This document shows, piece by piece, positions 29,097 to 64,000 of a stretch of 64,000 nucleotides of DNA (positions are counted from its first letter, which is position 1; the number at the start of each line of letters is the position of its first letter). Source of the stretch: Sulfurimonas sp. (GTDB lineage: Bacteria; Campylobacterota; Campylobacteria; Campylobacterales; Sulfurimonadaceae). Under the pieces are notes generated by a model. It saw only the letters and a list, made by a program, of their open reading frames with translations. It had not been told where the DNA came from and searched no databases. Position numbers and translations under genes: made by a program. Where the stretch lies: the NCBI GenBank assembly GCA_026988315.1, contig JALSLJ010000076.1:33760-97759 (forward strand). The letters run 5' to 3'.

Positions 29097-29108
29097 ACTA
29101 AGTTTGTC

Positions 29109-29129
29109 ATTCCGGGCTCGACCCGGAAT
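29109..29129. repeat. Palindromic repeat element, copy 1
   Basis: ATTCCGGG-CTCGA-CCCGGAAT between convergent genes. Confidence 0.85.
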
Positions 29130-29150
29130 CTACTTCTTTATTATCAAGTT

Positions 29151-32648: not shown

Positions 32649-34592
32649 TTAACCAAACTCTATAGGATCCATATCAATCTCAGCTAAATCAACCTTTGTT
32701 TGAGCTATAGCTTGCAGTAGGTATGTACTCTTATCTGAACGGAGTAAAATCTCAAACCTATACTTATTTGCTATCCTCTCAACAGCACACTTTCCAAATC
32801 CAACTATCTCTATAGTAGAGATTTTAGATAAATTTTCTTGCATTTTATGCATTTGCTCTTTTGCTTTTAAACCATTTTTATGTGCAAATAAAACACGACA
32901 TAACTTTTTATATGGAGGATATAACTCTTGACGGTAAATCTTTTCCTCTTGTAAAAATTCTTCATAGTTATCTACATAAGCACTAAAAAAGTCCTCATTA
33001 AAACTCTGCACTAAAACTTTTGCATTTTTCTTTCTACCACTTCTTCCTGCTACTTGGATGAGAGATGAGAGTGCTTTTTCTCTTGCTCTATAATCACTCA
33101 TATTTAACATATTGTCCATACCTAAAACAACCGCTAAGGTAACACCATGATAATCATGCCCCTTACTTAACATCTGAGTTCCTACAAGTATATCTGTCTC
33201 GTGATCGTTAAATCTCTTTAATGCTTTTTTCAACTTGTTTGATGTGGTGATAACATCACGGTCAAACTGCTCTACTTTAGCCTCACTAAACTCTTCACCT
33301 ATATTTTTTACAGCCTCAGCAGTTCCAAGTCTTGAACTTGTAAGATTGCCACTCCCACACTCACAACATACTTGAGGAATAGCCTGTGTGTAGTTACAGT
33401 AGTGACACTTCAAAGCACGAGAGTTTTGATGGATACTCATCCCGATGGAGCAAAAAACACACTCATAAGTGTGTCCACAATCTTGACATATAAGATACTT
33501 AAAGTTTGCACGAGTTGGGATGAAAACTATGGATTGTTCTTTGTTTAGTAAAGTATTTTTAAGATTTTGCAAAATCATAGGACTCAGCATTTCAGATGAA
33601 CGCTCATAAATAAACTCTTTGTTGGAGTTAAAATAGCCACCTTTTAATCTCACATGAGGAAACTTGACATAAGAGTTTAGCGAGGGTGTAGCACTTCCTA
33701 AAACTACATGAACATCATAAAGTTTTCCCATATAGATTGCAATATCTCTAGCATTATAACGAGGTCTTGAAGATGATTTATAACTATCATCATGCTCTTC
33801 ATCCACAACAATAAGTCCTAAATCTTTTATGGGTAAAAACAAAGCCGAACGGGGACCTGCTATGATGTGAGCAGAGCCATCATAGATTTTTTGTAGTGCT
33901 TTTTTCTTTTGAAGTGGTGTTAGTTTTGAGTGCCACATCACAACTGCCTCACCAAAATGGTGTTGGAGTCTTTGTCCCATTTGAGGAGTTAGTGAAATCT
34001 CAGGCATTAAAAATATAGAGCGTTTTTTTTCCTCTATCATCTGCTCAAAATACTTCATATATATCTCTGTTTTTCCACTTCCTGTATCGCCAAAGAGGAG
34101 TGAGGTTTTGTGTTGTTTAAAAAATTCTAACGCTTTTTCTTGTTTTGCTGAGAGTGTTAAGCTAGATTCCAAATCAAGTTTGGAATGACGAGTGGAGTTA
34201 CTGTCATCAGATGCGCAAACTTTCTCATTCGATGCGCTAACTTTCTCATTCGATGCGCTAACTTCGTCATTCCAGGCTTGACCTGGAATCTCATCAGCAC
34301 TTTCGTTCTCAAAAGCCACCATCAACCCCAATGCCTCACCTAAAGAGCAAACATAATAAGTCGCTATAAACTTAGCTAACTTCACCTGTTTAGATGAGTA
34401 TAAAAAATCTGATACTTCTAAAATAGGACTAGTTTTAAAACTGGGTTCCTCGGATGTGCAAATCAGCACTCCCTTTACCTTTTTGTTTCTCAAAACTACT
34501 TCTACTACAGTGCCTGTTTTAATATCTTTCTCAAAGTGGTAAGTAAGGGGTGTTAAAGGGGAGGAGAGGATACTCAATTTATAAAAAAACAA
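32649..34592 (-). CDS. priA: Primosomal protein N' (PriA helicase) with in-frame repeat insertion
   Basis: LLFGDTGSGKTEIYM, VVDEEHDDSYKSS, Cys-rich zinc region CQDCGHTYECVFC...CHYC...CCECGSG, LVGTQMLSKGHDYHGVTLA. Confidence 0.93.
   Translation of the reverse strand: MFFYKLSILSSPLTPLTYHFEKDIKTGTVVEVVLRNKKVKGVLICTSEEPSFKTSPILEVSDFLYSSKQVKLAKFIATYYVCSLGEALGLMVAFENESADEIPGQAWNDEVSASNEKVSASNEKVCASDDSNSTRHSKLDLESSLTLSAKQEKALEFFKQHKTSLLFGDTGSGKTEIYMKYFEQMIEEKKRSIFLMPEISLTPQMGQRLQHHFGEAVVMWHSKLTPLQKKKALQKIYDGSAHIIAGPRSALFLPIKDLGLIVVDEEHDDSYKSSSRPRYNARDIAIYMGKLYDVHVVLGSATPSLNSYVKFPHVRLKGGYFNSNKEFIYERSSEMLSPMILQNLKNTLLNKEQSIVFIPTRANFKYLICQDCGHTYECVFCSIGMSIHQNSRALKCHYCNYTQAIPQVCCECGSGNLTSSRLGTAEAVKNIGEEFSEAKVEQFDRDVITTSNKLKKALKRFNDHETDILVGTQMLSKGHDYHGVTLAVVLGMDNMLNMSDYRAREKALSSLIQVAGRSGRKKNAKVLVQSFNEDFFSAYVDNYEEFLQEEKIYRQELYPPYKKLCRVLFAHKNGLKAKEQMHKMQENLSKISTIEIVGFGKCAVERIANKYRFEILLRSDKSTYLLQAIAQTKVDLAEIDMDPIEFG
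34163..34189. repeat. Palindromic repeat element, copy 2 (inside priA)
   Basis: ATTCCAAA-TCAAG-TTTGGAAT core at 34166-34186. Confidence 0.85.
34210..34272. repeat. 3 x 21-bp tandem repeat inside priA
   Basis: GATGCGC(A/T)AACTT(TC/CG)TCATTC three times; encodes NEKVSAS-like heptads. Confidence 0.9.
34266..34290. repeat. Palindromic repeat element, copy 3 (inside priA, inverted relative to copy 2)
   Basis: ATTCCAGG-CTTGA-CCTGGAAT core at 34269-34289. Confidence 0.85.
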
Positions 34593-35059: not shown

Positions 35060-35147
35060 TTAAAATCCTTTAGTGTAAGTGAGTTGTCGAAGAGTTGTTG
35101 TTTTATATATGTATTCCACCTCAGGAGAGGTGGAACGAGAAAAAGAG

Positions 35148-63440: not shown

Positions 63441-64000
63441 TTCTCACCCAATGTTATGTTAATATTGATCTTCATCCCTTGTAATGATGCTGCTACATCT
63501 TCATTTGAGAGGGCTTGAAGTAGTTTTTTCAAGGCTTCTACACCTTCGTTGCCTGATGGTTTTTCACCTATATCAGCCTCTTGATTGAACTCTTGTGATC
63601 CAGCAGGATTTGGAGCTATATCATCAGTAGTATCAACCACTTCTTCTAATTCATCGCTAACTTCCTCGCCAATAGCTAGTTTTAAATCCCTACTTGTAAG
63701 TCCATCCATAGAATCAATCTCACTCGTAGCAATATCAATCAATGTTTCTTCATCTACTTCACTCTCTAGCTCTTCTTCACTTAATTCAGATACAGCACTC
63801 TGTATCTCTGCTTCAAGATCTTCGCCTTCTAAATCATGAAGGTCAAGCTCTTCATCTTCTCCATCAAGTGAAAGTTCTTCACTCTCATCCAATTCCTCAA
63901 GGTCAAGCTCTTCATCTTCTCCATCAAGTGAAAGTTCTTCACTCTCATCCAATTCCTCAAGGTCAAGCTCTTCATCTTCTCCATCAAGTGAAAGTTCTTC
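63437..64000 (-). CDS. Partial CDS: highly acidic repetitive protein (poly-E-rich-like; N-terminus outside window)
   Basis: Glu/Asp-rich frame (DESEELSLDGEDEELDLEEL repeats) continuing off the window; C-terminal conserved block GVEALKKLLQALSNEDVAASLQGMKININITLGEK; adjacent to gmk. Confidence 0.75.
   Translation of the reverse strand, partial: EELSLDGEDEELDLEELDESEELSLDGEDEELDLEELDESEELSLDGEDEELDLHDLEGEDLEAEIQSAVSELSEEELESEVDEETLIDIATSEIDSMDGLTSRDLKLAIGEEVSDELEEVVDTTDDIAPNPAGSQEFNQEADIGEKPSGNEGVEALKKLLQALSNEDVAASLQGMKININITLGEK
63841..64000. repeat. Perfect 60-bp tandem repeat (at least 2.67 copies, continues beyond window)
   Basis: Three successive 60-nt blocks starting at 63841, 63901 and 63961 are identical over their available length. 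Confidence 0.97.

Follow-up and report, generated by a model that had tools for sequence, protein, structure and literature searches.

The window analysed here is a stretch of 64,000 nucleotides from a Sulfurimonas genome that is assembled as 2.19 Mb in 112 contigs. On its minus strand, at 32649..34592, lies the priA gene, whose open frame runs from 34592 to 32649 and, with TTG as the listed start, encodes 647 aa. The identity of the protein is based on the NCBIfam model PRK05580.2-1, which it matches with 899 bits against a cut-off of 767. Its Pfam domains are PriA_3primeBD (3'BD, aa 15-92), DEAD (aa 150-306), Zn_ribbon_PriA and PriA_C; the helicase part starts at about aa 148 and the Walker A motif lies at about aa 168-175. 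A preliminary description of this DNA had placed an insert between the N-terminal DNA-binding region and Walker A, in a frame that stays open with intact motifs on both sides. Both points agree with our domain assignments, in which 3'BD and the helicase domains are recognized in one uninterrupted frame and the insert-bearing linker between them occupies about aa 100-146.

The insert consists of two copies of one 26-nt palindrome, called the CGTC-type REP here, and a tandem array between them. The first copy is on the minus strand at 34164..34189 (GTCATTCCAAACTTGATTTGGAATCT) and the second, inverted, on the plus strand at 34266..34291 (GTCATTCCAGGCTTGACCTGGAATCT); the coding strand reads them as the peptides RHSKLDLES and EIPGQAWND, respectively. 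Each is composed of GTC, ATTCCRRR, CTTGA, YYYGGAAT and CT, i.e. a perfect 8-bp stem closed by the loop CTTGA. The two belong to one family and are inverted relative to each other, with the GTC heads facing inward. The preliminary description had recognized both palindromes, with one end of each misplaced by 1 nt (34163-34189 and 34266-34290), and had correctly seen a 21-bp tandem repeat bracketed by them. This array is found at 34210..34272 on the minus strand with 3.0 copies of period 21 bp (92% match), and its units consist of a spacer and of the half stem and head (GAATGA) that belong to the REP at 34266-34291. Folded as a single strand, the 146-nt insert region has an energy of -32.3 kcal/mol, versus -15.1 +/- 2.7 in shuffles (z = -6.5). 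Of the six reading frames of the CGTC-type REP, four are open.

The palindrome is not confined to priA. A scan of the window allowing up to 3 mismatches gave 3 matches where 0 were expected, the third being a plus-strand copy between genes at 29106..29131. Over the whole genome, 28 copies were found by a degenerate pattern and none by its reversed control. Nearly all of these roughly 28 copies are intergenic or lie outside convincing genes, and several form inverted pairs with the heads inward. An intergenic copy at G000:C9:3470-3495 is identical to the REP at 34164-34189, and two at G000:C97:6-31 and C97:259-284 are identical to the REP at 34266-34291. Among 21 variant copies, 99.4% of the stem cells are paired, 45 double changes are seen against 12.7 +/- 4.1 in shuffles, and changes on both sides occur at six of the eight stem pairs; it is therefore the hairpin that is kept, not its letters. 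These observations bear on the idea that ordinary drift of the linker together with slippage made the repeats in place, with no mobile element involved. The 21-bp array is indeed of the slippage type, but both arms have identical genomic copies outside priA, and the same palindromes are multicopy in their carriers with stems that covary across copies, which makes such a local origin very improbable.

The sampled intergenic copies of the CGTC-type REP are often adjoined by arrays as well, in which the CGTC head, half a stem and a spacer are repeated next to an intact REP. The spacing is 21 in 30 of 43 intervals at these copies and 17-23 in the others; the interval count and TRF together give periods of 17-24 with a peak at 21. 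Because the same arrays are common at intergenic copies, the array in priA is a usual companion of the CGTC-type REP, grown from the one at 34266-34291. The earlier guess that the array had grown from the palindrome is thus borne out by the head and half-stem arrays that adjoin many intergenic copies. The possibility that the reading frame forces the 21-bp period was rejected, since 21 is the commonest spacing at intergenic copies too. In another PriA gene (G016) several 21-bp units lie between the palindromes, and in a further one (G072) there are several 18-bp units; the linkers of G016 and G057 have common outer arms and different interiors, a comparison that indicates probable turnover of the array. 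Elsewhere in the window, a 60-bp tandem repeat at 63828-64000 (2.7 copies, 100% identical) reaches the window edge.

PriA is present in 118 of the 135 genomes of the genus. We extracted the linkers of 108 Sulfurimonas priA genes as the span from a conserved LGEA motif to Walker A, which varies from 45 to 130 aa. They were scanned for five motif families: A, the CTTGA-loop CGTC REP of the window itself; B, GTCATTGCGAGCGAAGC; C, TTCCCA..TGGGAAC; D, CCCAGACTTCAGTCTGGG; and G, TTCCACCTC..GAGGTGGAA. Singly or together, these families occur in 38 of the 108 linkers and 70 have no recognizable one, other palindromes such as the GGATGTGTGGCTTTAGCC type being left out of the count. The families C and G are stem variants of one RAYT-flanking family, and therefore at least four unrelated families are present at the linker. 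None of the five families was found in the remainder of the 108 priA genes scanned. Perfect stems of at least 9 bp occur in 13 of the 108 linkers; among 2160 windows of the same length taken from other parts of PriA, 8 have one. Some linkers carry two families, i.e. A and B in G133 and G070, and B and C in G069 and G083. Carriers are richer in the same family elsewhere in their genomes (p=5.5e-9 for A, 1.1e-8 for B and 8e-4 for C, Mann-Whitney), and this link loses significance under a phylogenetic pairwise control with few informative pairs (4 to 0 of 10 for A). The longest linker, with 130 aa, belongs to the priA gene of G099 (L127) and has three units of ~105 bp with the CCCAGACTTCAGTCTGGG palindrome. 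In the priA gene of G021 (L018), the frame is broken by a TAA that lies among the linker's family C palindromes, reflecting either a split gene or an assembly error.

Contigs C38, C54 and C97 of the source genome end at or near CGTC-type REPs, and C38 and C54 have ends in common. Contigs that end at such repeats are what an artefact of assembly or binning might leave, but the insert is internal to a contig of 97,759 bp with its frame open, and linker inserts are also found in single-contig genomes, e.g. G043, G150, G011, G047, G056, G135 and G136. We give an artefact hardly any credence.

The presence of the families was compared with a FastTree tree of PriA minus the linker, in which many forks are open. 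The minimum numbers of presence changes are 11, 5, 9, 3 and 6 for A, B, C, D and G, respectively, and at least 19 for the presence of any family, where a change may be a gain or a loss. The preliminary description had raised the possibility that close relatives carry the same linker; this is not borne out for the insert, as the rows adjoining the window's PriA on the tree (G081, G094 and G066) have no family A insert. Comparison of linkers, along the lines that it proposed for defining the insertion, gave no clean empty site: none with otherwise identical flanks was found for the window's own insert, and the linkers of the close pair G043/G052 differ throughout. Between G112 and its near sister G073 there is one clean 72-bp in-frame indel in the linker, bearing a palindrome and having almost identical flanks, for which gain and loss cannot be told apart.

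We sampled 141 palindrome copies in other genomes, among which 114 are intergenic, 8 are at ORF edges and 19 are inside ORFs of at least 80 aa. When short ORFs and ORFs with no Pfam match are left out, about six convincing invaded genes are found among the 141 copies, i.e. sugar-nucleotide epimerases and dehydratases, a DUF4214 protein and possibly a HIT protein. The same loops of the sugar-nucleotide epimerase (L262, L310 and L314) are invaded in frame by different CGTC-type palindromes in G043, G004 and G070. With invasions in several other genes, in-frame invasion is thus general in Sulfurimonas, PriA being the strongest case seen. The earlier proposal that the insert is a protein-invading repeat of the kind known as RPE in Rickettsia is supported, since the palindrome is multicopy, mostly intergenic, in frame in priA and absent from the nearest species on the PriA tree.

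One could suppose instead that the linker is a preferred target, i.e. that palindromic elements of several unrelated families are drawn to it throughout the genus, by its DNA or by the replication state of priA. The concentration of at least four unrelated families in one stretch of ~40 codons speaks for this, as do the repeated hits on some genes and the small number of other genes struck. However no target motif common to the inserts and their flanks is evident by eye, the sugar-epimerase loops are also struck repeatedly, by two families, and tolerance combined with purging accounts for the pattern with no targeting at all. Overall we regard a preferred target as unlikely.

In an AlphaFold model of PriA built from 30 aligned sequences only (mean pLDDT 79.6), residues 100-138 have pLDDT below 50 with ordered domains on either side, and they are predicted to be disordered. 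A Foldseek search with the model finds solved PriA structures, and the lowest rmsd among the top matches is that of 6dcr, an E. coli protein with the winged helix deleted. Even with the insert, ~55 fewer residues precede Walker A in the Sulfurimonas PriA than in that of E. coli. The match to 6dcr and the early Walker A together suggest that the winged-helix domain is apparently absent from PriA of the genus, and the insert appears to occupy the place where it would be. In E. coli PriA, the winged helix is mobile and touches the parental duplex (PMC10175261).

Our data hence make it very probable that separate landings of mobile palindromes persist in a disordered PriA linker that tolerates open peptides. 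The insert is a head-to-head dimer of CGTC-type REPs enclosing a 21-bp satellite array, a composite that is common in the intergenic DNA of the genus, and one copy of this composite, we infer, landed in the priA segment that joins 3'BD to the helicase. Because the REP is open in most frames and the linker is disordered, an in-frame landing there would be neutral, leaving a working helicase, and hence would be kept. Insertions into the rest of priA, and into most other genes, would be purged. Unrelated palindrome families would have landed separately in the linker of many Sulfurimonas species because it tolerates almost any soluble peptide. The array would lengthen or shorten by slippage later. 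A point against separate landings is that some of the inserts may have spread by transfer of priA segments from one species to another.

A different explanation is that the inserts are adaptive, with a longer or hairpin-coding linker tuning PriA or the priA mRNA. According to Di Nocera et al. 2013 (PMC3733652), intragenic REPs are biased to replication and repair genes, with speculation on altered activity, and PriA would be a further gene of this kind. But the peptides in the linkers resemble each other in neither sequence nor length (45-130 aa from the LGEA motif to Walker A), and the majority of the species (70 of 108) have no recognizable insert, so that an adaptive role is improbable.

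We inspected 30 RAYT loci (L073 and L335-L363, NF047646), and 28 of them have a TTCC..GGAA palindrome within 400 bp, mostly TATGCA-TTCC..GGAA-CGAG, with flanking stem variants that include the TTCCCACGC and TTCCACCTC types. RAYT transposition would be a reasonable mechanism for the linker inserts of families C and G. The RAYT gene of the source genome itself (L073, 102 bits) is flanked by a palindrome other than the window's family. RAYT was also considered as the mobilizer of the CGTC family and rejected, since no CGTC-type REP lies within 400 bp of the RAYT genes at any of the 30 loci. The genome of G043 has 109 CGTC copies and apparently no RAYT, which is suggestive only: the genus-wide Pfam Y1_Tnp search behind it missed the RAYT of the window's own genome, and absences in it prove nothing. 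No transposase is known for the CGTC family, in agreement with PMC3733652. A RAYT-type palindrome (TTCCACCTCAGGAGAGGTGGAA) is also present in the window at 35114-35135, between two pilin-like genes.

Intragenic REPs and RPEs were known earlier as scattered cases across many proteins. That one helicase linker has been entered by four or more unrelated families in a third of a genus amounts to a naturally replicated experiment on the acceptance of selfish DNA by proteins. Tolerance versus targeting thereby becomes testable in a genus that is harmless, and two classes of mobile element, RAYT-flanking REPs and CGTC REPs, are shown side by side. If the linker is truly a favoured landing site, an essential replication-restart gene would log which small mobile DNAs have been active in each lineage.

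Among known systems, the closest are the CGTC REPs, defined together with the GTAG REPs by Di Nocera et al. 2013. The priA palindromes have the features given in that paper: the unpaired CGTC head (or TGTC/CCTC), which both arms show as CGTC-ATTCC; a stem of 8-9 bp starting from AT with a loop of 4-5 nt, here 8 bp and CTTGA; multiple, mostly intergenic copies with head-to-head dimers and some in-frame intragenic cases; and no dedicated transposase gene flanked by the family. A short tail is present, with CTA and CTC in the priA arms where the published 3-nt consensus is CCA. The relation to the Rickettsia RPEs is closer than analogy and close to kinship, because RPE-4 and RPE-6 of Rickettsia conorii are themselves CGTC REPs according to the same text. 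Like the priA insert, they are palindromes in frame in functional genes that code for tens of residues. Rickettsia is however of another genus and phylum, and Sulfurimonas has unrelated families at one protein site. REPINs and RAYT-mobilized REPs share the inverted REP pairs, and the RAYT-flanking palindrome of Sulfurimonas (TGCA-TTCC..GGAA-CGAG) is itself an invader of the priA linker in other species, whereas the window's family was not found beside the examined RAYT genes and so has no cognate RAYT flanked by its repeat. The main text of PMC3733652 does not mention Sulfurimonas or PriA, and we found in it no description of a ~21-bp satellite between dimer partners or, there and in the other literature searched, of a multi-family site in one protein. 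The nearest precedent in that text is recB of Xanthomonas campestris and X. oryzae, a DNA-repair gene in which the REPs of related species differ but occupy nearly the same position; that case comprises two species, whereas at the PriA linker four or more families are spread over 38 of 108 species. The kind of element is already known, and what is new is the site, one PriA linker invaded by several families.
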